Notes under the pieces: model-generated | Told to the model about the DNA's origin: nothing | Seen by the model: the letters and a program-made list of their open reading frames with translations, nothing else | Databases searched by the model: none | NCBI RefSeq assembly: GCF_022631235.3 | Contig: NZ_CP093310.2 | Coordinates: 1,364,001 to 1,428,000 of the forward strand | Reading direction: 5' to 3' | Source: Psychrobacter raelei | Lineage (GTDB): Bacteria; Pseudomonadota; Gammaproteobacteria; Pseudomonadales; Moraxellaceae | Length of the DNA: 64,000 bases | Shown here: positions 8,614 through 48,405 of the stretch, piece by piece | Layout: each line of letters starts with the position of its first letter | Numbering within the stretch: position 1 is the stretch's first letter | Translations under genes and position numbers: made by a program

Positions 8614-10521
8614 ATGGCCCATCGCAAAGGACAGCCCTTACCTCAACGCTCTTTAAGAGCCGATATGAAAGCGGGTCTGTGCTATAAGTGGTCGTCAAGC
8701 ACACGGCATGCGACGCTTATTGGCGGCATTTGCTTATCACTTATGGGGTGCCAGTCTACAGCCGCTTTAAGCGCCTCGGAACCGGCGAACTTAATAGACT
8801 TCTCAGTCAGCGATCCGGCCCTTACTCAGGCTCAGAGCAAAGCCTTTCAACACACCCTACAGCGCAATCAAGCGGCATATCAACAGCTGTTTGATCAAAG
8901 CGCCTTTCCTGATAGCGACACTCAAGCCAAAAATAAGCTTATTAGTGCGTTGCGGCAACATCTGGCTACCGAGCATGTGGCTGTGGCAAAAGCCCGTTAT
9001 CACCTCACCCCTTTTATTGCTGAGGGCAGTATTGATGCTGGTGCCGACAGTTTATTTAACACGGTATTAGACATTATTGACTATCAAAACAGTCACGCTG
9101 AAGATGAGGCTTATAGTGAGGAGGAGGAGGTGACTGGTGATGACGTCTATTATGATGAGGAAACAAATGCTTATTATTATATAGATGACGCAGGCGAAGT
9201 GACTGTTATAGAAGAGGCAGCTGCGGCTGTTGCTGCTGACAGTGATGAGGAGGGGTATGACAGCGATGCGGACGATGGGGCGGCAGATTATGCAGACCAT
9301 GAAGAAGGCAGTTTTTTAACCCGTAATAATCCAAAACGTATGTTGGCCACTTACGAAGAGATGCAGGCGGCTAAGCAAGATAATGCCAAATCAGAAGCAG
9401 GCATCGGGGGCATGGGGAGCTTAACGGCTTTGCTGAGCATGAGTAAAAAGACACCTGAGCAGGTCGCCACTGCTAATGCCTATCAGTACCAATACCTTAC
9501 TCTCAATAGTGTCAGCCAGTATAAGCCAGCAGAGCGCCGGTATAACAGCGTTTACAGCTATGACTATGCAGCGCCGACAGTAAGTGGCACCATACAATTG
9601 CCCTTTGCGATAGACTTTAATAACAGCCGTGTGTCTGTTGACCCCTCTGCCTTAATGCCTCTGATGGCACTGGTAGATCCTGAAAACACCCCTTTGCCTG
9701 ATCAAATGATATCGAAGACAGTCGATTTGGGGTTGCCTGCCAGCATCACCTCACAGATTCCGCCTGCAATCATCTATGATGCCAGTATTGCCGCTATGCA
9801 AGACAGTATCGCGGAGCTTGACCCTGAGCTGTTCAGCTTAATCGACATCCAAAACGATGACTTTGCCAAGCAGATTGGGGCAGCCCAAGGTATTAAAGTG
9901 TATTTTGGCAGTAAGCAAAGTGGTGAGCTTATTGGCAAAATATTTAAACACATCAGTACGGCATTAGAGCGCTATGTGGATGCGCATCCTGAGGCCTACC
10001 CTGACAACCATGGCCTAAAAAATGCCATAAAAAAAGTACAGCTTTATAACAAAGGTTATCAAAGTGGGGATATCGGCTCCCTACTGCAACTGATTGAGGC
10101 GGTAGTGCCGATCTCTTTTAATCAGGCTAATTATTATTACCTAGATCAAGCCGGTCACTTATTGGGTAAACAGCAGCGTATCAATCTGGGCAGTGAGCTT
10201 ATTGGGATGCAATCGGCAATGCTCAATCAGATACGCTACGACCACAATAGCTTTAGCCAGCATGCTTTAACCCCACTACTTGAGCAGTCCTTTGGTAGCA
10301 AGGCGCCGAAGTCTATCGATGGCAATGCTTGGTTGCAACAGATCAAGCTAAGCAAACAAAAGCAGAGCTTGGCGCAAGCAGCACGAGAAGAGTACTTTTA
10401 TATCGATGCCACATGTGTCACCCAATATGAGGGCACTGATGATGACGACTATCATGAAGATGAGGCTCATAATGACTGCCGCAAGGATAGCTACGATGAG
10501 GACAGTTATGGGCCACAATAA
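8614..10521 (+). CDS. Large acidic lipoprotein of unknown function
   Basis: A 635-residue protein with a lipoprotein signal: hydrophobic segment HATLIGGICLSLMGCQST with lipobox LMGC (Cys46). The start at 8614 has a strong purine-rich ribosome site, but an in-frame ATG at residue 18 would give a more normal 28-residue signal. Residues about 165-235 are a highly acidic, Tyr-rich low-complexity stretch (for example YSEEEEVTGDDVYYDEE), and the C-terminus is again Asp/Glu-rich. The remaining parts look globular. The family is unknown to me. It probably sits in the outer membrane facing the periplasm or surface, and is paired with the next lipoprotein gene. Confidence 0.72.
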   Translation: MAHRKGQPLPQRSLRADMKAGLCYKWSSSTRHATLIGGICLSLMGCQSTAALSASEPANLIDFSVSDPALTQAQSKAFQHTLQRNQAAYQQLFDQSAFPDSDTQAKNKLISALRQHLATEHVAVAKARYHLTPFIAEGSIDAGADSLFNTVLDIIDYQNSHAEDEAYSEEEEVTGDDVYYDEETNAYYYIDDAGEVTVIEEAAAAVAADSDEEGYDSDADDGAADYADHEEGSFLTRNNPKRMLATYEEMQAAKQDNAKSEAGIGGMGSLTALLSMSKKTPEQVATANAYQYQYLTLNSVSQYKPAERRYNSVYSYDYAAPTVSGTIQLPFAIDFNNSRVSVDPSALMPLMALVDPENTPLPDQMISKTVDLGLPASITSQIPPAIIYDASIAAMQDSIAELDPELFSLIDIQNDDFAKQIGAAQGIKVYFGSKQSGELIGKIFKHISTALERYVDAHPEAYPDNHGLKNAIKKVQLYNKGYQSGDIGSLLQLIEAVVPISFNQANYYYLDQAGHLLGKQQRINLGSELIGMQSAMLNQIRYDHNSFSQHALTPLLEQSFGSKAPKSIDGNAWLQQIKLSKQKQSLAQAAREEYFYIDATCVTQYEGTDDDDYHEDEAHNDCRKDSYDEDSYGPQ

Positions 10522-10619
10522 GCCGTTTTGAGTAAAGGCCTTTAAAGCGCTTTATGCGAACCCTTTACAATCTACCTCAATTATCACCCTTATCAGAACT
10601 AGGCTATCAAGGACTTCTC

Positions 10620-12395
10620 ATGACGTGCAATACTCATATAAATACAGCATCAAAGCCGGCAGCACAGCGATCAGAGCAAGCAAACGCCGCACTGGCTAGA
10701 AAGCTGCCACGACTCGAAAAACTGCCACTATCACTGACCTTGCTGGCAGGCAGCCTGTTACTTGCCGGCTGTCAAACCACAGCGCTGCAATCACATAATG
10801 ATGCATCGCCTATCGAGGCAAAAGCAGCGCTTAAGCAGGCACTACAGAAGCAGCGTACGAGCGCTTATAGCTATCATAGCCAGATTAAAATCAGTCCGGC
10901 CATGTCACCTGACACGGTTAACGCTGAGGACTTAGGCGTCACTGACTCTTTAGATACTTACTGCGAAAATACGCATGATCAGGCGTATATGGGCTTACTT
11001 GAGCAGGCAGATGGTGCGCAAAAACCTGTGCAATCAGCCCAGTTTGACGCCCAAAGACAAGCCATTAAACAGGCTTATATCGCTTGTAGCAAGGCTTATC
11101 AAGCGTGGCAATATAATCAGCCTGATGAGTATGACACTGAGAACCAAATCGACTATGAACAAAGTGAACAGACAGCTGATGAGAGTGTAGCGCCTGCTGA
11201 GCACGCTATCAAACCGGTCTCTGAGTATTACCAAAACCTGTTTGATAATTATCAGCACAAGCCCACTAAGCTCGATGTCAAAAAAGCCAAACTGCTACAG
11301 GCTTATCTATTAAAGCCATCGTCTATCCATGCTCAAGGCAGCTATCAGCCCGCTGCTGGTAAGTTTACGATCCTAATGAGCGCTCAGTATTTTGTCCATA
11401 ATAATAAAATCTCTATCAATCAGCCGATTTATGTAGATGCCAAGACCGGCAGTATTTATTTATGGGCCGATAATTTTGCGATGTTAACCTCAGAGTATCT
11501 AGATACTAAGCTTGGCACCACTTGGCACAATAAATGGCTAAAGCTAACTTTAAATGATGGTACGTTGCCTCAAGGTTTTACCCAGTCGCTAATCAAAGCG
11601 CACTTTCAAGCTTTAGACAGACTGTATGAATCTGCGCCGGTTAACGAGTTTGAACCAGTGGCACCCCGTCAGTTAAATAGACTCTCTGGAGCGTTAACTG
11701 AGCAGCAGCTTAGCCTTATGTTGGCCAGCCCACAGGTGATTCGCCGCACCCAAACAGTGCAAGATTATTATCAGTCTTATCATGACTATATCCGTACGTT
11801 GTATTCTATTCTTAGTGCCAAGTATCCGCAGCTTGTGGCCGAGACTGATGCTGCCAATGTTTCCAATACTGCCAATACTGACAGCAAGGACAATAGCACT
11901 GCTGAGTCGGTAAGGCTAAACGAGGCCACTGGCAATACATTTAGCAGTAAATCCTTGGTACAAAAAATGCTCACGTCCATGAGAACTATGATAGACACTG
12001 AGTCTGATCAGCTGATATATGGGGTGTATAGCGGTGAAGGTCAGCTGTCTGACGATCAAACGCTTAATCAAAGCGTAGAGCAGCTTTATGGCCTAGCTAA
12101 TAACGGTCAAATACAGTGGCAGTATCTGCATAATATAACCAGCCAGCCAGACATTGATAGCCTGAGCGTCGATGTGTTTCAGCGTTATTTGCCACTTTCA
12201 AAGCCACCGCTGGACTTTGTTAACTTGCCGGCCAATATGCAAAAGCCTAATGCCAATAATAGCGTTGATTTAAGACAATATAGTGACGCGTTAACCGAGC
12301 GTTATCGCAGTGGTGAAGGGACTGTGATAGGTAGATTGTTATTAAGTCAAATTTTGCAACCAGACTTAGTTGGTCCGCCATTACAAAGCGAGTGA
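10620..12395 (+). CDS. Second lipoprotein of unknown function
   Basis: From ATG 10620 (AAGGA six bases upstream) the product is 591 residues, and its signal segment LTLLAGSLLLAGCQTT ends in lipobox LAGC. A longer form from ATG 10554 is possible but has no good ribosome site. The mature part is globular, Gln/Tyr/Ser-rich, with a moderately acidic linker after about residue 160. I recognise no domain. Its size, lipobox and position 98 bases after a similar lipoprotein gene suggest the two form an operon and perhaps distant paralogues, but I see only weak resemblance. Confidence 0.7.
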   Translation: MTCNTHINTASKPAAQRSEQANAALARKLPRLEKLPLSLTLLAGSLLLAGCQTTALQSHNDASPIEAKAALKQALQKQRTSAYSYHSQIKISPAMSPDTVNAEDLGVTDSLDTYCENTHDQAYMGLLEQADGAQKPVQSAQFDAQRQAIKQAYIACSKAYQAWQYNQPDEYDTENQIDYEQSEQTADESVAPAEHAIKPVSEYYQNLFDNYQHKPTKLDVKKAKLLQAYLLKPSSIHAQGSYQPAAGKFTILMSAQYFVHNNKISINQPIYVDAKTGSIYLWADNFAMLTSEYLDTKLGTTWHNKWLKLTLNDGTLPQGFTQSLIKAHFQALDRLYESAPVNEFEPVAPRQLNRLSGALTEQQLSLMLASPQVIRRTQTVQDYYQSYHDYIRTLYSILSAKYPQLVAETDAANVSNTANTDSKDNSTAESVRLNEATGNTFSSKSLVQKMLTSMRTMIDTESDQLIYGVYSGEGQLSDDQTLNQSVEQLYGLANNGQIQWQYLHNITSQPDIDSLSVDVFQRYLPLSKPPLDFVNLPANMQKPNANNSVDLRQYSDALTERYRSGEGTVIGRLLLSQILQPDLVGPPLQSE

Positions 12396-12544: not shown

Positions 12545-13540
12545 ATGCTCAGTCTCATTCAAGACAATCAGCAGCTGTCCTTTTTAATTGGCTTGATTGT
12601 ATTTGTCATGATATTTTTATGGATGCTGCAGCACTCAGTGATTGAGTATGGCAATAGAGTGCGGACACAGTTATTGGACTATGGCCGCGCTTTGGAAAGA
12701 AGATTTGGTATCAAGCAGCGCCTAGCTCAGCTAAAGATCAGTTATCCTAAGCTGTACCATTTTTTTTGGCAGAGACTACATATCGAGCACTTTTATGGCT
12801 TGCCTTTGACCGCATTGGTCTTGGTAATGGGCTATGTGTTATCACTATTTGTGGGTCTGGTCGAGGATGTGGTCACCTCAGAGTCTATCGTGGCGATGGA
12901 TCATTTCGTCTCGCAGCAGATGAGCGTCATGAGTGATTCAGGGGTAATTGATTTTTTTATTCTAATCACCAGCTTGGCCTCCACGCCGATTACCGCCTTG
13001 GTCATGGTGCTGACCACGCTATTGTGCTGGCTAGTAGGGCAGCGCTATTTAATTATAGGGCTGCTTATTGCCACCTTGGGCAGCACTGGATTTACTTTTT
13101 TAAGCAAAATGCTGTTCCAGCGTGAGCGGCCAATAGATATTTTGCTCCATGAAGCAACCTATTCATTTCCCAGTGGCCATGCCACAATTTGTGTGGCGTT
13201 ATATGGGTTTATTGCCTATTTGAGTATCCGTTTTAGCACAGATTTTATGAGACAAATACGCATTGGCGCCGTCACCATATTTTTATGTCTCTTAATTGGC
13301 CTAAGCCGAATTGTGTTAAACGAGCATTATTTAAGTGATGTGATGGGCGGCTATTTGGTAGGTACATTGTGGCTAACTGTCGCCATTAGCGTGATGGAAT
13401 GGATAAGCGCAAAAAACAAAATCAACTGGGCGGTTGCTTGGTCGCAGCCGCAGCGTCATTTGCTATGGTTTGGCGCGGCCTGCGTACTCATTGGCGCAGT
13501 CATTTACGCCAATTTGTCTCAGTTTCCACTTTTGTATTGA
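12545..13540 (+). CDS. PAP2-family membrane phosphatase
   Basis: A 331-residue membrane protein with the three-part acid phosphatase signature: K-x6-RP (KMLFQRERP, near 187-195), PSGH (about 208-211) and SR-x5-H-x3-D (SRIVLNEHYLSD, about 253-264). About six membrane helices surround the motifs, and an N-terminal helix with a basic cytoplasmic segment (residues 35-80) precedes the core. Family members dephosphorylate undecaprenyl pyrophosphate, phosphatidate or phosphatidylglycerophosphate on the periplasmic side. The substrate cannot be settled here. It is convergent with the chimeric gene. Confidence 0.88.
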   Translation: MLSLIQDNQQLSFLIGLIVFVMIFLWMLQHSVIEYGNRVRTQLLDYGRALERRFGIKQRLAQLKISYPKLYHFFWQRLHIEHFYGLPLTALVLVMGYVLSLFVGLVEDVVTSESIVAMDHFVSQQMSVMSDSGVIDFFILITSLASTPITALVMVLTTLLCWLVGQRYLIIGLLIATLGSTGFTFLSKMLFQRERPIDILLHEATYSFPSGHATICVALYGFIAYLSIRFSTDFMRQIRIGAVTIFLCLLIGLSRIVLNEHYLSDVMGGYLVGTLWLTVAISVMEWISAKNKINWAVAWSQPQRHLLWFGAACVLIGAVIYANLSQFPLLY

Positions 13541-13593: not shown

Positions 13594-14916
13594 CTATGAG
13601 ACTTTGTGCTCCCACCAAGGCGCGGTGGGTAGTGTGTCGAGGGTGAAGACTTGGCCGATACGGGGGGTGGCCACTTTGATTCTGTGTTTGGCAGGCTGAG
13701 TGCTGTTGTAATTATCGAAGGCAAGTTTGAGTCGTCGAACCGGTTCACGCCAGTGATGCACGGACAAATCAAACTTGCCCCAATGGATTGGCAGCACGAC
13801 TTTTGCCTGAACATCGATGCCAGCTTGCGCTGACTCTTCTGGCATCATATGAACGTTGCGCCAGCTCTGGTTATAAGCGCCATCTTCGATAAAGGCCACA
13901 TCAAAGCCGCCAAAGCGCTCACCGATTTTGGCAAATTCTTCTGAGTAGCCGCCATCGCCACTAAAGTAGACGCTCAGCTGCTGAGACTGTACCGCCCAGC
14001 TCCCCCATAGCGAGGTGTTTTGTCCGGTTAATCGGCGTCCGCTAAAATGCCTAGTGGGCGCAAAGGTGAGCGTAATCTCATCCTTAGATAAAGAGGCGCC
14101 GCCAGTGATGCTGGCACTCTCATACCAATCATATTCGCTGATATTGTCCGCCGCCACCCCCCAGAGTATCAGATGCGCTTTTACGCCAAGCGGTACATAA
14201 AAATGCCCCACTTTATGCGCCAGTTGTTTAATGGCTTTATGGTCTAAGTGATCGTAGTGGTCATGAAAGTGACACGCCCCAGTGCGCTGCAATTTATCGG
14301 CATCGGCTCGGAAGTCACCAAGCCCAGCGGCTTTTTCGGGGGCAATAACCAACACATGCTCAATATCAAAAGGGGCAGGGACTTGCTTGTTTAAGTTGAG
14401 TAGTCCTTCAGCACTGAGTCGCTCTAACATGGCGGCATATTGGCGAGCCAAATCACCTAGAGTATAACTGGGGTCAATATCATTAATGGTTAATGAGAAC
14501 CCATACAGTGGATGAAAATTTGCTGTCACGTTAAGCAAAACGGTAACGTCACGCTCTAACGCCATGCCAGTAGCACGTTCAAATTTAGCCAATACTCGTG
14601 CTGCTTTAAAGCGCCATAAGTTACCTCGGCAACTGGCAATCACTTTGCCATCGTCGTCTTTTTCAGCCAACTCAAAGTAATAATGCCCGCCCTTGCTGGA
14701 TAAGTTGCGAATCTCAGCTTTAACCCAAACGCTGTGGCTAAAGGTTTCTTTGACCACCAGCTCAACCGCTGCCAGATAATCGCTAAGTCTGAGTACCGTA
14801 TTTTCTAATTCATCGGCTACAGGGTCGATTAACTCGTCGCTGTCAAAGTTTTCGGCATCAAAGCCTGAACCGTCTGAGGGGAGAGAATCAAGGCGAGATA
14901 AGTCTGGCTTAGGCAT
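13594..14916 (-). CDS. Chimera: XseA (exonuclease VII large subunit) N-terminal half fused to C-terminal part of an MBL-fold hydrolase
   Basis: A 440-residue open frame of two unrelated halves. Residues 42-218 read as XseA: start LRLSDYLAAVELVV, OB-fold motif VWVKAEIRNLSSKGGHYYF, and the start of the catalytic region AAGLGDFRADADKLQRTGACHFH. From residue 218 on it becomes an MBL-fold hydrolase of the UlaG/NAPE-PLD-like group: HDHYDHLDH metal motif, then HFYVPLGVKAHLILWGV, SLWGSW, FSGDGGY, FIEDGAYNQSW, and VLPIHWGKFDLSVHHW. XseA lacks its second half, and the MBL lacks its N-terminal strands but keeps its metal ligands. The natural explanation is an in-frame deletion joining two neighbouring same-strand genes at about 14262-14268. 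Neither activity can be assumed. Confidence 0.85.
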   Translation of the reverse strand: MPKPDLSRLDSLPSDGSGFDAENFDSDELIDPVADELENTVLRLSDYLAAVELVVKETFSHSVWVKAEIRNLSSKGGHYYFELAEKDDDGKVIASCRGNLWRFKAARVLAKFERATGMALERDVTVLLNVTANFHPLYGFSLTINDIDPSYTLGDLARQYAAMLERLSAEGLLNLNKQVPAPFDIEHVLVIAPEKAAGLGDFRADADKLQRTGACHFHDHYDHLDHKAIKQLAHKVGHFYVPLGVKAHLILWGVAADNISEYDWYESASITGGASLSKDEITLTFAPTRHFSGRRLTGQNTSLWGSWAVQSQQLSVYFSGDGGYSEEFAKIGERFGGFDVAFIEDGAYNQSWRNVHMMPEESAQAGIDVQAKVVLPIHWGKFDLSVHHWREPVRRLKLAFDNYNSTQPAKHRIKVATPRIGQVFTLDTLPTAPWWEHKVS

Positions 14917-14945: not shown

Positions 14946-15063
14946 TATAATGATACCAATTCTCTAAAATAACATATCTTTGCCAAACTCACTTAGCCTA
15001 CTAATTGTAGTACTTGCGCTCGTTTTGCTCGGTATGTTAATGAATAGAAATGGTATTAGTATA
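14946..15063. mobile_element. MITE-like element with about 28-bp imperfect terminal inverted repeats
   Basis: The left end starts TATAATGATACC (14946) and the right end finishes GGTATTAGTATA (15063). The left 24 bases from 14951 match the reverse complement of the right end at 18 positions, and the TATA-side extension adds more pairs. The element is 118 bp, has no frame, and lies just upstream of the XseA::MBL chimera. It may be a non-autonomous transposon. Copies elsewhere in the genome would be needed to confirm it. Confidence 0.45.
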
Positions 15064-15260
15064 CTTGTTTGATAAGCAGAAGGGTATTATAGCCAGTATG
15101 ACATCAATCTCAACTTTTGGTTGTGAGAAGTTTGATTTTACTAATTTAACAATATTGTAAGAAGTTGATGACAAGGAAAAGTTTAAAAAAAGAACGACAG
15201 GTGCGGGTAATGCTAGAAACAGTGTCACAAGCTAATTTATCAATAAAAAGGAAATGTTAA

Positions 15261-16046
15261 ATGCTGTTTGATCCTATGAAAAAACGAAAAAATGCAATGA
15301 TTGATTTTTTAATCAATACTAAATACGATCCTGATAGTCCTATGGGTAATGTGGCAGCAACTGATATTCTTATGTTAATTGGTTATTGGATGGTGGGTCT
15401 AAAGTCTGAAACAGAGGTAATTCTACCCAGCCATATCCAATGGATACAGAAAGCCATTGATGACAATGAAACACTTAAGAATCGTTATGGAGAAGAACAA
15501 GATCCTTATTTCCATAAATATCAGCTATATGAACACTTAGCTCTTGCCAAATGGCTTGATACTGGTAAAGACAGTATCAGCGACTGGCAACATGCCAAAA
15601 CTATCTATGGTGATAATTATGTCAAACGTCAGTGGTGGGAAACCAGAAGTCTTAAAACATATGGCTTAGATGATTATTTAGCATTGTGCATACAAGCGCA
15701 AGATTATGAGGCTGGTATTAAAGAGTTTGAACATTACTATGGTCAAAAAAACATCTCATTAAAAAGAAAAACCATCACACCAAGAGAGTATGGCTATCTG
15801 GTTTGTCAAAACCAATTAAACCGCATACACGACAATCAAACCATGATAGAAGTGGGTAGAAAATTATTAGCCAAATATTTAGAAGACACTTGGTTAGGCT
15901 ATGGTCAATTCGCAAGAGCTGCACAGTGGCTTAAGATTGTTTATTGGCATCATGGTGAAGACTTAACGCCAGAGCAGACTTTACTTAAAATTTATGAGAA
16001 TATACCGAGTATTGAAACACCGGAATTTATAAAACCTAAGCTTTAA
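15261..16046 (+). CDS. Hypothetical protein, possible immunity-type orphan
   Basis: A 261-residue soluble protein, rich in Lys, Tyr, Trp and aromatic-acidic helices (YHKYQLYEHLALAKWLDTGK, QWWETRSLKTYGLDDYLALC). It has no signal peptide or membrane segment and no motif that I recognise. It is predicted mostly helical, and its base composition is more AT-rich than its neighbours. It sits alone next to a MITE-like repeat. Such helical, Trp-rich orphans are often immunity proteins of polymorphic toxins, but nothing here proves that. AAGGA lies 7 bases before ATG 15261. An ATG seven codons in is also possible. Confidence 0.6.
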   Translation: MLFDPMKKRKNAMIDFLINTKYDPDSPMGNVAATDILMLIGYWMVGLKSETEVILPSHIQWIQKAIDDNETLKNRYGEEQDPYFHKYQLYEHLALAKWLDTGKDSISDWQHAKTIYGDNYVKRQWWETRSLKTYGLDDYLALCIQAQDYEAGIKEFEHYYGQKNISLKRKTITPREYGYLVCQNQLNRIHDNQTMIEVGRKLLAKYLEDTWLGYGQFARAAQWLKIVYWHHGEDLTPEQTLLKIYENIPSIETPEFIKPKL

Positions 16047-16188
16047 ACGGAGAAGGCTAGCGCAAAGCATCTATCCTTGAAGCTACTGGACAAACAGGGT
16101 AATACAATAACACTAACGCACTAATCCAAGCCTATCGCTACAGCAGATACGCCATAACGACAGACTTTCATAAAACTACTTGGATACG

Positions 16189-17025
16189 TTAAACAAGCTG
16201 ACCCATTTTGCCACTGCGATAGTCTTCATAAGCTTGTGCGATACGCTCTTCGGTATCCATCACAAACGGACCATCAAAAATAATGTTGTCTTTGACAGCA
16301 TCCCCGCCTAGCAATACCAACTCAACATCGTCATCACTGGCCATCAACATAACCGTGTCACCCGTCGATAAAACCGCGATAGAATCTGAACCAAGTTTGC
16401 GTCCGTCAGCTAAGGCCAATTGACCAGTCACCACATAAATGCCAAGCTCTTCAGCACTTTTTTCATCCACATTCAACGTGACACTTTGATTGGCAGGCAA
16501 GCGAACATGTGCTAACAAGTTGGTGGTTTGGGTCTGAATAGGACCGTCATGACCTTCCAGATGACCAGCAACAACACGGATGGTGGCCTGATCTTTAGTA
16601 AACTCAAGAATTTGGTCACGTTTATACTCTTGGTAGCTTGGCTCCATTAGTTTCTTATCCGCAGGTAAGCTTGTCCATAGCTGCAAACCATGACGACCAC
16701 TGGTCGGCTGTTCGGCATGGATAATACCGCGCCCTGCATTAATATATTGGGCATCAAGTGCGTTTAACTCACCTTTTAGGCCTTTGCTGTCACGGTGAGC
16801 AACGCCGCCGTCAAACAGATAGCTAATGACTTCGATACCAGCGTGTGGATGCGGTCTATCACCGATACCACGCATGCTTTGATGGTTGTAATGATCGACA
16901 AACACATACGGGCCAATAGAAAACCGATCACGTTGAGGTAGCGCGCGCCATAGCAGCATATCGCCGTCATCAATGGCTTTTTGTGCGGATAAAACATCGG
17001 TAATGATTCTTGTATTATTTTGCAT
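16189..17025 (-). CDS. Pirin family protein
   Basis: A 278-residue bicupin protein. The N-terminal cupin carries the pirin metal site: HPHAGIEVISYLFDG (His-x-His) and INAGRGIIHAEQP (His and Glu). The 'Q..N.G.G..H.E' pattern is diagnostic. The C-terminal cupin (about 150-278) ends with FDGPFVMDTEERIAQAYEDY, usual for the family. Some pirins have quercetinase activity and others bind redox or metabolic enzymes, so the role here is open. It is cytoplasmic and divergent from the acyl-CoA ligase gene. Confidence 0.9.
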   Translation of the reverse strand: MQNNTRIITDVLSAQKAIDDGDMLLWRALPQRDRFSIGPYVFVDHYNHQSMRGIGDRPHPHAGIEVISYLFDGGVAHRDSKGLKGELNALDAQYINAGRGIIHAEQPTSGRHGLQLWTSLPADKKLMEPSYQEYKRDQILEFTKDQATIRVVAGHLEGHDGPIQTQTTNLLAHVRLPANQSVTLNVDEKSAEELGIYVVTGQLALADGRKLGSDSIAVLSTGDTVMLMASDDDVELVLLGGDAVKDNIIFDGPFVMDTEERIAQAYEDYRSGKMGQLV

Positions 17026-17344: not shown

Positions 17345-19015
17345 ATGATAAATAACTATAACGCCGCCCCGCAAGCCTACAACTTTCCGTTGACCATCAA
17401 ACAGTTATTAAACCGCTCAAAAACCACCTCTCAAAATGAAGAAATCGTTTATGCGGATAAAAAACGCATGACATATAGCGAGCTGTTTACGCGTATTGCG
17501 AAGCTTGCTAATGTTTTAGGTGGTCTGAATTTAGAGAAGGGCGATGTGGTTGCAGTAATGGACTGGGACAGTCACCGCTTTTTAGAGTCTTACTTTGCCA
17601 TTCCGATGTCGCAGTATGTATTGCAGACGGTTAATATCCGTTTGTCTCCAGAGAAGGTGCTGTACACCATCAACCATGCCAAGCCAAAAGTGCTGCTGCT
17701 AAACTCTGAGTTTGCACCGATGGTAAAAGACTATCAGTTTGAGAACTCGTCAATTGAGCATATCATTTGGCTTGATGACAATGGCACCAGCAGTGAGGGT
17801 GTGTTTGGTATCAGTCAGGAGCGACTGCTTGGTGAATATGAAGCGCTGCTTGCCGATGCCAGTGATGAGTTTGAGTTTCAAGACTTTGATGAAAACACCA
17901 TTGCCACCACTTTTTATACCTCAGGCACCACCGGCAATCCAAAAGGGGTATTCTTTAGTCACCGCCAATTGGTACTGCATGCGTTAGCAGAAGCGGCGAC
18001 GCTGGGCGTGTTGCCACAAAAGCAAGGCCTAGTACTGGGTGATGTATATATGCCAATGACGCCGATGTTCCATGTGCTGGCGTGGGGCTTTCCTTATACC
18101 GCCACCATGCTTGGTATGAAGCAGGTGTATCCGGGTCGTTATGCACCTGATGTGATGTTGAAGCTCATTGAAACCGAAAAGGTGAGTATCACTCACTGCG
18201 TACCGACTATTTTGCAGATGCTACTTAAGCAGGCCGATGCAGAAGGCAAACGCTTTAATGGCCTAAAAATGATTATTGGTGGCTCACGCTTATCTGAAGG
18301 ATTGGCGCAAACCGCATTATCAGCAGATATTGAGGTCTATACTGGTTATGGTATGTCAGAGACGGCGCCGCTGATTAGCTTGACTGAATTTAGATCAGAT
18401 GATCCTGAGATGAGTCTAGAGGAAGAGGCGAAGCGACGTAGCCTAACCGGCAAGCCGGTCATAATGGTGGAGGCCAAAATTTGGGATGGTGATGGCAATG
18501 CGCTACCGCAAGATGGTAAGCAAACCGGGGAGCTGGTACTGCGTGCGCCTTGGCTGACTCAAAGCTACTTCAAAAATGCCGATGCCGGTGATGAGCTATG
18601 GGTCGGCAGCTATATGCATACCGAAGACATTGCATTTATGACTGAAGATGGCACGTTAAAAATTACCGACCGATTAAAAGATGTGATTAAATCTGGTGGT
18701 GAGTGGATATCGTCCTTAGAGATTGAGACCATTTTATCCTTGCATCCTGCAGTCGCTGATGTGGCGGTGATTGGGGTGCGTGATGAGAAGTGGGGCGAGC
18801 GTCCACTGGCGGCAATTGTATTAAAGCCTAACTGTCAGGATGTGACCGCTGAGGATATCAAAGCCATTGCCGAAAAAGCCGCTGAAAAGGGTATGATTCC
18901 TAAGTACGGCGTGCCTGAGCAGTATAAAATTGTGGATGACTTGCCTAAGACGTCAGTAGGCAAACATGATAAGAAATTGATGCGTGAGATGTACGCTGGT
19001 CAAACCACTATTTAA
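17345..19015 (+). CDS. Fatty-acyl-CoA ligase (AMP-forming, AlkK/FadD-like)
   Basis: A 556-residue member of the ANL adenylating enzymes. The P-loop-like motif YTSGTTGNPKGV is near residue 191, the adenine-binding motif YTGYGMSETAPLIS near 336, the ATP-binding Asp region YMHTEDIAF near 425, and the hinge DRLKDVIKSGGEWIS near 440. The C-terminal catalytic lysine is expected in PKTSVGKHDKK. Sequence style is closest to medium/long-chain acyl-CoA ligases of the AlkK type. It activates fatty acids with ATP and CoA in the cytoplasm for beta-oxidation. The enoyl-CoA hydratase family gene that follows fits the same pathway. A terminator separates them. Confidence 0.92.
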   Translation: MINNYNAAPQAYNFPLTIKQLLNRSKTTSQNEEIVYADKKRMTYSELFTRIAKLANVLGGLNLEKGDVVAVMDWDSHRFLESYFAIPMSQYVLQTVNIRLSPEKVLYTINHAKPKVLLLNSEFAPMVKDYQFENSSIEHIIWLDDNGTSSEGVFGISQERLLGEYEALLADASDEFEFQDFDENTIATTFYTSGTTGNPKGVFFSHRQLVLHALAEAATLGVLPQKQGLVLGDVYMPMTPMFHVLAWGFPYTATMLGMKQVYPGRYAPDVMLKLIETEKVSITHCVPTILQMLLKQADAEGKRFNGLKMIIGGSRLSEGLAQTALSADIEVYTGYGMSETAPLISLTEFRSDDPEMSLEEEAKRRSLTGKPVIMVEAKIWDGDGNALPQDGKQTGELVLRAPWLTQSYFKNADAGDELWVGSYMHTEDIAFMTEDGTLKITDRLKDVIKSGGEWISSLEIETILSLHPAVADVAVIGVRDEKWGERPLAAIVLKPNCQDVTAEDIKAIAEKAAEKGMIPKYGVPEQYKIVDDLPKTSVGKHDKKLMREMYAGQTTI

Positions 19016-19074
19016 GCGGTCTTTAAATTAAGATGGTTTTATTAAGTTAATATTTGAACCCTAGAGTAATATTT

Positions 19075-19106
19075 AAAAGCCGTGGCAGTGATGCTGCGGC
19101 TTTTTG
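19075..19106 (+). terminator. Rho-independent terminator after the acyl-CoA ligase gene
   Basis: AAAAGCCG (19075-19082) pairs with CGGCTTTT (19097-19104), with inner CAG/CTG pairing, followed by T residues. Confidence 0.75.
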
Positions 19107-19291
19107 TCTAAATACCAATATGCTAGTATAGCCCCCTGTTAAATATGGGTCTGATAATGGGCAATTATCATACCCCGTGATGATATGAAAATTAAATGAC
19201 CTGATTATGTGGGTGTTTATTTATTCAAAGGGTCATTATCACGGTTGTTTTTAGAACTTATAAAGCTATTTAAACTGGGGCAAACATTCAC

Positions 19292-20503
19292 ATGCAAACC
19301 AATAACAAAAGTTTGGCAGCCAAGGGCGCAGAGGCTGCTGATACCGCAGAAGTGTTATTTGAACAAATCCAAATCAAACAAGATTTACAAATCGGTTTGA
19401 TTACCTTAAACCGTGAAAAATCACTCAATGCGTTAAGCACCACTATGTGTCAGATGATGAGTGATAAGCTCACAGAGTGGGAAGAAGTCGATAACCTCGT
19501 GGCAGTCGTCATTCGTGGGGCAGGCGAGCGCGCATTATGTGCCGGTGGCGATATCCGTCAGTTGTATCAAGCTCGCCAGCAGTGGGATAAAGAGGGCATT
19601 GCGCCGCCAGAGGCCATTGATTTTTTCGCCAGTGAGTATCATTTAGACACTCAAATGCACGAGTATCACAAGCCGATTATTATCTGGGGCAGCGGTATTG
19701 TGATGGGCGGCGGTATGGGGATACTAAGTAGCAGTAGCCACCGAATCGTGACCGAGACCACACGTGCAGCAATGCCAGAAGTAAATATTGGGCTATTCCC
19801 AGATGCGACAGGCAGTTGGTTCTTACAGCGATTCCCAGCCAAGACTGGACTATTTATGGGTCTAACCGGTGCAGACGCCAATGCCAATGATGCCTTGCTA
19901 TGTAACTTGGCTGACTTTAAGATGAGCAGTCAAGACTTTGACGCCATGCTACAAAGCTTGTGTGATGCCGATTGGAGCGAGGCACTGGGTCAACCGACTT
20001 TAAATAGCCTAAGCAGTAAACTGCATCAGATTGCAACAAGCACACTTAACCAGTTTAGTATTGAGTCGACTAAAGATATTGAGTTTGCACCCAGTAACAT
20101 TGCTAAATTTATGCAGCCTATTCAGCGGTTAATGAACTGTGGCGGTCTGGATAAAATTGATGCTATTTTGCAGTCGGACTTGGCCATTGAGCAGTTTTAT
20201 CCAGAGTTTGCCAGCAGTGCGTGGTTTCAGGCGGCCGTGGGGAATTATCGCTATGGTTGTCCGGTGACCAAAGCCATTACTTATGAGATGTATCAGCGAG
20301 CCCACAACTTGTCATTAACCGAAATTATGGCACTTGAAACCAATGTGGCGCTGCACTGCGTCAATTATCCTGACTTTAGTGAAGGAGTACGTGCTTTACT
20401 GATAGACAAAGACCGCAAGCCGCAGTGGAGTCGCAGCCTAGCTCAGTGTTTAGATGTTGAAGGTCAAGCCTACATTCAACAACACTTTCAAGCGCTATCC
20501 TAG
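19292..20503 (+). CDS. Enoyl-CoA hydratase/isomerase family protein (3-hydroxyisobutyryl-CoA hydrolase-like)
   Basis: A 403-residue crotonase-fold enzyme, longer than ordinary enoyl-CoA hydratases (about 260) and matching the HIBCH group. Motifs are GAGERALCAGGDIRQLY (CoA/oxyanion hole), GSGIVMGGGMGI (second oxyanion Gly pair), and MPEVNIGLFPDATGSWFLQR with the catalytic Glu position. In the family the reaction is hydrolysis of 3-hydroxyisobutyryl-CoA in valine breakdown, though some members are hydratases. The roughly 20 N-terminal residues are extra, so the start could lie a little downstream. It follows an acyl-CoA ligase gene. Confidence 0.87.
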   Translation: MQTNNKSLAAKGAEAADTAEVLFEQIQIKQDLQIGLITLNREKSLNALSTTMCQMMSDKLTEWEEVDNLVAVVIRGAGERALCAGGDIRQLYQARQQWDKEGIAPPEAIDFFASEYHLDTQMHEYHKPIIIWGSGIVMGGGMGILSSSSHRIVTETTRAAMPEVNIGLFPDATGSWFLQRFPAKTGLFMGLTGADANANDALLCNLADFKMSSQDFDAMLQSLCDADWSEALGQPTLNSLSSKLHQIATSTLNQFSIESTKDIEFAPSNIAKFMQPIQRLMNCGGLDKIDAILQSDLAIEQFYPEFASSAWFQAAVGNYRYGCPVTKAITYEMYQRAHNLSLTEIMALETNVALHCVNYPDFSEGVRALLIDKDRKPQWSRSLAQCLDVEGQAYIQQHFQALS

Positions 20504-46893: not shown

Positions 46894-47054
46894 ATGACAC
46901 ACTTATCACCGCCGCCTGGCTCGTTATCACAACAAGCCTACCATGAGGATCCAGATAGCCGCCAAGTACGCCGAGTGCTGTGGACCTTGCTATTGGGCGG
47001 CACAGTGGTCAGCTTTAGCAACAGTGCGTTAAACCCGGCCATCCCTGTTTTTAT
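46894..47054 (+). pseudogene. N-terminal stub of an MFS transporter cut by the TnpB element
   Basis: An ATG at 46894, 21 bases after the permease stop, opens 53 codons: a hydrophilic start and then the first helix RRVLWTLLLGGTVVSFSNSALNPAIPVF, which looks like the first membrane segment of a DHA-type MFS exporter. The frame then enters the element at 47055. The rest of the transporter is not found on the other side. By position it was likely a siderophore or drug exporter in the iron operon. Confidence 0.75.
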
Positions 47055-47059
47055 CACCG

Positions 47060-47103
47060 GTCGCCGTAAAACCACCCACTTCAGGGGGTGGTTTTACGGC
47101 GAC
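47060..47103 (+). repeat. Left-end hairpin of TnpB element, copy 2 (perfect 18-bp stem)
   Basis: GTCGCCGTAAAACCACCC (47060-47077) is the exact reverse complement of 47086-47103 with an 8-base loop. Copy 1 has the same structure with several broken pairs. Confidence 0.9.
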
Positions 47104-47167
47104 ACACACTGTCGTGATCAGTACTTAAAGTATTGCAAGTTAAAATTAACCTCGCCATACTAACCCT

Positions 47168-48274
47168 ATGAAAACACTCAAGCTACGCATCAAAGACAAG
47201 CATATAAAAGAGCTGAACCAGCTAAGCGGTTTAGTAAACTTCGTGTGGAACTATGTCAATGCGCTTTGCTTTGAGCATTTAAAGTGTACCGGTAGGTTTT
47301 TTAGTGCTTATGATTTAAGTGAGTATACCAAAGGTAGCGGTGAGTATTTAGGATTACACAGTCAAACCTTACAAGCTATCAATGAAACTCACGCGAAGGC
47401 CCGAAAACAATTTAAAAAAGCCAAACTCAATTGGCGTACCAACCGTGTGGATGCCAAACGCAAATCGCTTGGTTGGATACCTTTTAAAAAGTCTGCTATC
47501 AAGTACCTAAATACCAGACAAACGGGAAAGAAAGCACTTAAATCAACCATACAGCTATCGCTCTGTAAAGGTCAAAAGCTTATCATAGACCTCTTTGATA
47601 GCTATAATCTATCTTTGTATCAAATTAACACGCTTGAGATAGTGCAAGACAGCCGTAACCGTTGGTATGCCTGTATTACCGTTAAAGACCATCCTAGACA
47701 AGTAAGTGGCAAAGGCAGCGTTGGTATTGATTTAGGCTTAAAGAAGTCTGCTACTACCTCAAATGGCGACAAGCTAACTATTAAGCAGACCCAAAAATGG
47801 GCTAAAAAGCTTGCGATTGCTCAACGTGCTAAGAATAAAAAGCGTGTCAAAGCAATCCATGCCAAAATTAAAAACTCAAGATTAGACTTAATTCACAAAT
47901 TCACCACCAAGATAGTTCAAAATAATGCTTTAATTGTGGTTGGTGATGTTAAATCACGCTCATTTACCAATTCGATGACCAACCTAGCTAAATCAACATA
48001 CGATGCAGGATGGTTTGAACTCAAAAGACAACTGGAATATAAATGCAAGTATGCAGGTTGTCAGTTTGAGATGGTAAATGAGAGTTACACTACCCAGACC
48101 TGTTCGCACTGCCTTAAAATAAGTGATAGTAGTCCGAAAGGTAGAGCAGGTCTTGGAATAAGAGGATGGAGGTGTGCTGAGTGTGGCACATGGCATGATA
48201 GAGATATCAATGCTGCTAAGAACATCCTTGCGGTCGGGCTTGACCGTCTAGCTGTAGCAATCCCCTCGGTTTAG
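47168..48274 (+). CDS. tnpB: TnpB RNA-guided endonuclease (IS200/IS605 family)
   Basis: A 368-residue TnpB. The N-terminal recognition region starts MKTLKLRIKDKHIKELNQLS with WNYVNAL near residue 27. RuvC-I is GIDLGLK with D188, the zinc ribbon is C312-x2-C315 and C336-x2-C339, and RuvC-III is HDRDINAAKN with D346. The RuvC-II site reads ALIVVGDVKS, with Gly259 where Glu is usual. A Glu305 in MVNESYTTQTCS just before the ribbon may replace it. In known systems TnpB cuts DNA next to a target-like motif using a guide from the element's right end. Its stop codon lies in the loop of the right-end hairpin. Confidence 0.92.
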   Translation: MKTLKLRIKDKHIKELNQLSGLVNFVWNYVNALCFEHLKCTGRFFSAYDLSEYTKGSGEYLGLHSQTLQAINETHAKARKQFKKAKLNWRTNRVDAKRKSLGWIPFKKSAIKYLNTRQTGKKALKSTIQLSLCKGQKLIIDLFDSYNLSLYQINTLEIVQDSRNRWYACITVKDHPRQVSGKGSVGIDLGLKKSATTSNGDKLTIKQTQKWAKKLAIAQRAKNKKRVKAIHAKIKNSRLDLIHKFTTKIVQNNALIVVGDVKSRSFTNSMTNLAKSTYDAGWFELKRQLEYKCKYAGCQFEMVNESYTTQTCSHCLKISDSSPKGRAGLGIRGWRCAECGTWHDRDINAAKNILAVGLDRLAVAIPSV

Positions 48275-48291
48275 CGAGGGGAGGAAGTCAA
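48152..48291 (+). ncRNA. Candidate right-end guide RNA scaffold, copy 2
   Basis: Identical over 140 nt to 5903-6042 although upstream tnpB sequence differs widely. It includes the TCCCCTCG/CGAGGGGA hairpin at 48261-48282. The guide would be the bases from 48292 on, that is the 3' end of the receptor gene remnant. This is inferred from other TnpB systems; expression is not shown. Confidence 0.4.
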
Positions 48292-48405
48292 AACCTACTC
48301 AATAAAGAGCATATGAATGTGTATCACCAAGCCACCTATGGCGATATGAATCGCCTGCCTTCACAAGGCACTACCTATGGTATCAGCTATACCATTGATT
48401 ATTAA
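48292..48405 (+). pseudogene. C-terminal remnant of a TonB-dependent siderophore receptor
   Basis: From the element's right edge a frame runs NLLNKEHMNVYHQATYGD and then MNRLPSQGTTYGISYTIDY before TAA at 48403. NLLNK-x-H/Y, a G-R/T-TYG block and a terminal aromatic residue are the usual last strands of TonB-dependent receptors. Only 37 codons remain of about 700. It sits where a receptor gene would be expected downstream of the Fhu-like operon. Confidence 0.8.

Follow-up and report, generated by a model that had tools for sequence, protein, structure and literature searches.

A Psychrobacter raelei reading frame that joins the front half of xseA to the back half of a metallo-beta-lactamase-fold hydrolase gene

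The window analysed here is a stretch of 64,000 nucleotides of the Psychrobacter raelei chromosome (contig NZ_CP093310.2, positions 1,364,001 to 1,428,000 of the forward strand), and coordinates are those of the window unless they carry a contig (C1) or locus (L) label. Its minus strand holds a 440-codon open reading frame that starts with ATG, reads as the exonuclease VII protein XseA to codon 218 and continues from there, in an unbroken frame and without a stop, as the back half of a NAPE-PLD-like metallo-hydrolase of the metallo-beta-lactamase (MBL) fold. The genomes referred to most often below are those of P. raelei itself (G000), P. pasteurii (G005), P. phenylpyruvicus (G023) and Psychrobacter sp. 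FDAARGOS_221 (G035); the features of the locus are as follows.

12545..13540, plus strand: PAP2-family gene, convergent with the chimera and the start of an unrelated left neighbourhood
13594..14916, minus strand: chimeric open reading frame of 440 codons (open reading frame call, Pfam, TIGR00237; single-member cluster P0001)
13594..14263, minus strand: MBL-derived back (NAPE-PLD-like hydrolase), 670 bases, to the stop codon (comparison with P0002, alignment to 4qn9)
14263..14266, minus strand: joint, with shared bases TCA (against the MBL DNA of G105) or CA only (against that of G014)
14264..14916, minus strand: xseA-derived front, 653 bases, comprising codons 1-217 and the CA of codon 218 (DNA identity, PF13742)
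14955..15054, no strand assigned: inserted MITE-like element, some 100 bp long and bounded by imperfect terminal inverted repeats, which G005 and G035 do not have upstream of xseA
15086..15113, minus strand: promoter-like site TTGAGA-16-TATAAT, identical in sequence in G005 and G035, a consensus match only
15261..17025: a 261-aa gene (plus strand) and a pirin gene (minus strand) forming the right flank, in the same order as in G035, which has extra genes between them
17345..20503, plus strand: an AMP-binding ligase gene and an enoyl-CoA hydratase-like gene, neighbours of xseA in relatives

The right flank stays collinear with G035 for 16 kb within the window, and its 261-aa gene, present in three of 57 genomes (P. 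raelei included), shares 90% DNA identity with G035. The AMP ligase and the hydratase-like gene are the xseA neighbours in P. pasteurii, P. phenylpyruvicus and P. lutiphocae, and the ligase is the neighbour in G035; the order AMP ligase, xseA, xseB, glycerate kinase is found in the first three species. As the order of the right flank matches that of these relatives, the chimera sits at the xseA position of the P. pasteurii group. The stretch between xseA and pirin (15261-16046 in the window, 10283-16208 in L067 and 12276-13851 in L068) contains various small genes, differs among G000, G035 and G005, and looks like a variable gene-acquisition spot. In P. phenylpyruvicus (L069 10560-14320, G023), two tandem AMP-ligase genes lie beside xseA, compared with one in P. 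pasteurii and P. lutiphocae. Further to the left, two adjoining large proteins (8614-10521 and 10554-12395) have starts that appear lipoprotein-like by eye; neither Pfam nor NCBIfam gives a match for the second at an E-value of 0.001. Of five genomes compared, G030 alone has matching DNA for the pair, if an 80-bp match in G023 is disregarded.

The MITE-like repeat that the first-pass annotation had placed just upstream of the frame is indeed found there, between the promoter-like site and the start codon of the chimera. A second copy (91%) lies at C1:2892580-2892683, shorter weak matches occur elsewhere in the genome, and G035 contains three 48-bp matches to the element. Five promoter-like sites occur in the region, compared with 3.0 expected. 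A direct role of a MITE or an insertion sequence (IS) at the joint was considered and set aside, as the MITE-like element lies about 690 bp away and shows no sign of involvement. An IS-like repeat of about 1.25 kb is present at 47048-48305 and has dozens of matches in P. pasteurii, mostly at 82-92%.

The chimeric nature of the frame, first noticed from the letters alone, is confirmed by domain hits and by intact relatives of both parents, and the joint at codon 218 falls within the positions originally proposed for it, 14262-14268. This codon is CAT in the chimera (14265-14263), after which the MBL reading follows, and it is CAC in all four XseA genes read at this point (G005, G035, G023 and the intact copy of P. 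raelei described below); XseA identity thus ends at 14264 and the MBL part begins at 14263.

In its front half, the chimera contains the OB fold of XseA (PF13742 at residues 44-148, profile positions 3-95 of 95, 49.7 bits with a cut-off of 27), and its sequence is 98% identical to the XseA of P. pasteurii over 221 residues and differs from the intact 526-aa XseA P0003 at seven of 218 residues. By comparison with complete XseA proteins, which combine PF13742 with PF02601 and belong to TIGR00237, the chimera shares the front 217 residues and lacks both the remaining C-terminal part and the catalytic domain past its first 46 or so of 315 positions. The Pfam search accordingly gives no match to the Exonuc_VII_L domain PF02601, which begins at residue 172 in the intact copy, and the TIGR00237 model scores the chimera at 81.4 bits, below the required 180, whereas the intact proteins P0003 and P0022 reach 247.5 and 243.5 bits. 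The part of XseA that binds XseB lies in its C-terminal region. Judged from its sequence, the hybrid cannot work as an exonuclease VII subunit because both a complete catalytic domain and the XseB-binding part are absent.

The back half shows the opposite truncation. Lactamase_B_2 (PF12706) is matched at residues 217-379 from profile position 37 to 200 of 200, compared with 5-200 in the intact 419-aa MBL protein P0002; this bears out the early impression that the N-terminal part of the MBL domain has been lost. From His218 onwards, only four of 223 residues differ from P0002, whose nearest solved relative by sequence is NAPE-PLD (4qn9, E-value 2.8e-50). The HxHxDH motif and the later putative ligands are present in the back half, and the prediction that the hybrid would keep its metal-ligand motifs holds for all seven residues (H218, H220, D222, H223, H290, D321 and H378), which we take to be the metal ligands of NAPE-PLD-like enzymes and whose positions come from the alignment to 4qn9. 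Compared with a NAPE-PLD-like hydrolase of this fold (PF12706; 4qn9), the chimera thus keeps the back 223 residues together with the seven candidate ligands, whereas XseA sequence stands in place of the N terminus, including the hydrophobic stretch found in P0002, and of the first portion of the domain. Among the segments missing are 'EFVWLGHST' and 'TDPVF', both fully conserved across nine MBL proteins. As the 'WLGHST' and 'TDPVF' stretches are gone, the hybrid is probably not a working MBL enzyme, and its product would be expected to fold poorly and to have neither activity.

Three of the four differences from P0002 in the MBL part fall on variable columns and the fourth, a leucine at residue 251, is also leucine in one of nine intact relatives; because these changes spare invariant positions, the MBL part does not yet show decay, and the fusion event may be recent. 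Between the xseA front and that of P. pasteurii, 48 codon changes are silent and three alter the residue, a low ratio that mostly predates the fusion.

In the collections searched, the fusion is seen in a single genome. In a search of 5.8 billion proteins, in which the 8,000 candidates sharing most words were scored, the 90% cluster of the fusion (P0001) has one member on one contig, which is this chromosome, and the fusion query is covered to 63% at most by any other of the best 120 of 5,856 hits. The same collection contains intact versions of both parents, P0002 for the MBL protein, present on 10 contigs, and P0003 for XseA. At the species level, 93 relatives were found and 80 loci kept; the XseA front is present at 79 of these, all 79 continue into XseA with its RGGG motif and none runs into the MBL motif, the remaining locus being an MBL gene. 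An XseA-front match is found in 35 of 35 same-genus relatives. The MBL back half occurs in nine of 105 genomes of the genus, including that of P. raelei, and in the other eight it belongs to MBL frames without an XseA front (G105 has a short frame in addition to its MBL frame). A close relative with the same architecture, which the first-pass annotation had itself held up against its reading, is not seen in any of the sets searched. Plasmids and viral contigs were rejected as the source of the MBL gene: the 218 plasmid records that matched are all below 60% identity, and the viral contigs yielded a single pattern match and no confirmed one.

From this locus alone, the cell had been suspected of lacking exonuclease VII unless it held another xseA. 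It does hold one: an intact xseA of 508 aa lies at C1:1695057, about 316 kb from the start of the chimera, and reaches 243.5 bits with a cut-off of 180, followed by an xseB at 99.3 bits with a cut-off of 40. The match of P0003 to this copy carries one TAG, located within the 21 bases before the ATG, and the 508-codon frame is open. The presence of both genes rules out the loss of exonuclease VII, which a reading of the single locus would wrongly have predicted. The gene order at the intact copy is xseA, xseB, glycerate kinase, gamma-glutamyltransferase and msrAB (L031 6337-14000, corresponding to G000 C1:1694336-1701999), and this copy adjoins a peroxiredoxin gene, the xseA position of the P. 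pasteurii group being that of the chimera. In P. raelei, xseA and the AMP-ligase neighbourhood are more than 300 kb apart; because the two lie near each other in related species, an older rearrangement may have split them.

The fused front and the intact copy have different affinities. In DNA, the fused front shares 92% identity with P. pasteurii and 85% with both G035 and P. lutiphocae; with the intact copy in its own genome it shares only 79%, a value that rules out its origin by duplication of the resident xseA. The front of the intact copy shares 75-78% identity with the five nearest species compared. A ten-row tree places the fused front together with G005, G035 and P. lutiphocae and the intact copy outside, the grouping having a support of 88/92, which is under the starred level. 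In the remainder of the window, P. pasteurii is matched mainly at 71-85%, the IS-like repeat left out, and against this background a front at 92% looks foreign-like and the intact copy native-looking. The nativeness of the copy at C1:1695057 rests on its divergence, 75-78% and thus background-like, and on Psychrobacter sp. YP14, whose copy (P0019) resembles the intact one and which shows no second among the best 120 clusters listed. Rightwards, identity to P. pasteurii is 83-92% from 17.25 to 19.0 kb and then 78-86% to about 20.5 kb. The AMP ligase stands at 87%, a value that is not decisive because 87% is also reached outside the tract, in the peroxiredoxin region beside the intact copy; only the xseA front clearly stands out as a candidate signal of import.

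How could a foreign-like xseA front have come to be fused to an MBL gene? With modest confidence, we lean towards a recent strain-level recombination scar left by homology-facilitated illegitimate recombination (HFIR) of foreign DNA from an xseA flank. The recipient would already have held its own xseA elsewhere and an intact minus-strand MBL gene here, and it is from the present arrangement that we infer its gene order before the event. Linear P. pasteurii-like DNA carrying xseA and its upstream neighbours would then have entered and recombined homologously on the right, on the pirin and AMP-ligase side, while its left end would have been joined illegitimately, at two or three shared bases, inside the MBL gene, with deletion of the MBL front half and of anything in between. 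In PMC3240628, HFIR is described as having one homologous end and, at the other, a microhomology of mostly 3-10 bp accompanied by a deletion, products and deletions averaging about 1 kb; Acinetobacter baylyi, Streptococcus pneumoniae and Pseudomonas stutzeri are named as species with such products. Under this reading, the locus would resemble those products in having foreign-like DNA among homologous genes on one flank, very little sequence in common at the joint on the other and a loss of resident sequence, the last being equally what a plain deletion would leave. It differs from them in that two or three bases are shared rather than 3-10 and in that the tract is probably longer than this average, measuring about 6 kb should it extend to 20.4 kb; identity to P. 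pasteurii falls gradually to the right without a clear edge, and the P. pasteurii contig ends near there. We infer this reading from a single end state, and under it the in-frame fit would be a one-in-three coincidence.

The joint itself contributes little to the choice of mechanism. With the MBL DNA of G105 and G014 used as stand-ins for the true MBL parent, the exact bases shared are TCA (xseA of G005 or G035 against G105) or CA (against G014), which would be at or below the HFIR range usual in that source and is what chance gives. Of all position pairs of the two genes, about 1.7% match at three bases (31,463 of 1,849,815 for G005 against G105), so that the microhomology taken alone is not evidence. 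When the genes are compared in register over 27 bases, 12 to 15 of the 27 agree in the four pairings, a level reached by 0.09% (G035 with G105) to 2.4% (G035 with G014) of position pairs, that is by at least 1,684 pairs. Microhomology between histidine codons was therefore rejected as a strong cause; of the suggestion that His-rich words could have provided microhomology, what stands is the shared TCA or CA, and what does not is its significance, the match being at chance level. The genome also has ComEC, which is not telling for competence since ten of 14 control genomes, E. coli among them, have it too.

The original explanation, a deletion between two same-strand genes, accounts for the anatomy equally well and is the main rival to HFIR-style import as the main reading; we consider it less likely, and doubtful as the whole story. 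It would start from a full second xseA, inherited or imported, with a same-strand MBL gene to its left, and a plain chromosomal deletion between short repeats would have removed the back of xseA, the MBL front and the intervening genes, perhaps xseB, glycerate kinase and gamma-glutamyltransferase, with the same consequences for function. A joint with two or three shared bases is in keeping with it, and xseA, xseB, glycerate kinase and gamma-glutamyltransferase do stand in line in P. pasteurii and P. lutiphocae, as do the first three in G035 and P. phenylpyruvicus; the genes following xseA (xseB, glycerate kinase and gamma-glutamyltransferase) are missing at the chimera and present beside the intact xseA. 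However, such a deletion needs an ancestor with both genes close together, to which four of the four relatives that could be placed give no support: MBL and xseA are on different contigs in the drafts G021, G014 and G034 and 809 kb apart in G030. Moreover, the remaining front is foreign-like, so that an import would be needed anyway. A reciprocal inversion or translocation was discarded on other grounds, as the expected partner joining the MBL front to the XseA back is not found in the genome.

An assembly error, in which two loci or a longer locus would have been wrongly joined, is suggested by the occurrence of the fusion in a single genome and is nonetheless improbable. The parents share only two or three exact bases at the joint, leaving no repeat to explain a collapse, and the frame is preserved across it. 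In an assembly of two contigs with an estimated completeness of 100%, P0002 has its sole match at the chimera, beginning at residue 192, and P0003 has no match other than the chimera front and the full-length intact copy; the absence of the missing halves from a near-complete genome argues against a misjoin, and the longer locus with two full genes that had been envisaged at the outset finds no counterpart, this genome having no second full MBL gene and no second xseA of the P. pasteurii type. A functional hybrid under selection, acting as an OB-fold-targeted metallo-hydrolase or as a regulator of exonuclease VII, is very improbable. It could account for 440 codons without a stop, the retention of all seven putative ligands, MBL changes confined to variable or leucine-tolerant columns and the persistence of the promoter-like site common to G005 and G035. 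Against it, the MBL part is without its N-terminal strands and the XseA part without its catalytic domain, no relative searched shares the arrangement, an element of about 100 bp separates the promoter-like site from the start codon, and the purifying selection seen in the front relative to P. pasteurii (48 silent changes to three) is mostly older than the fusion. That an expressed and folded newborn protein would use its OB fold to bind single-stranded DNA and deliver a re-formed MBL metal centre, with the XseA linker supplying the missing MBL strands, and would thus be a new DNA-directed metallo-hydrolase or an inhibitor of exonuclease VII, is a faint prospect. The hybrid is most likely a non-functional remnant, and a harmless one since an intact xseA persists.

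A chimeric remnant of illegitimate recombination is ordinary in kind, with a small chance of being a functional newborn gene. The locus is a clean natural case in which two unrelated bacterial genes have become one open reading frame while intact relatives of both parents can be identified, and it illustrates that a housekeeping gene that looks broken may turn out to be a redundant second copy of foreign-like character. If the unrearranged locus of a sister strain is as predicted, it would represent HFIR caught in a natural genome. Among the XseA-bearing records, BMPS01000001.1 (L168), titled Streptomyces cinereus JCM 3040, contains a Psychrobacter-like XseA (73%) with an adjoining xseB and looks mislabelled or contaminated.
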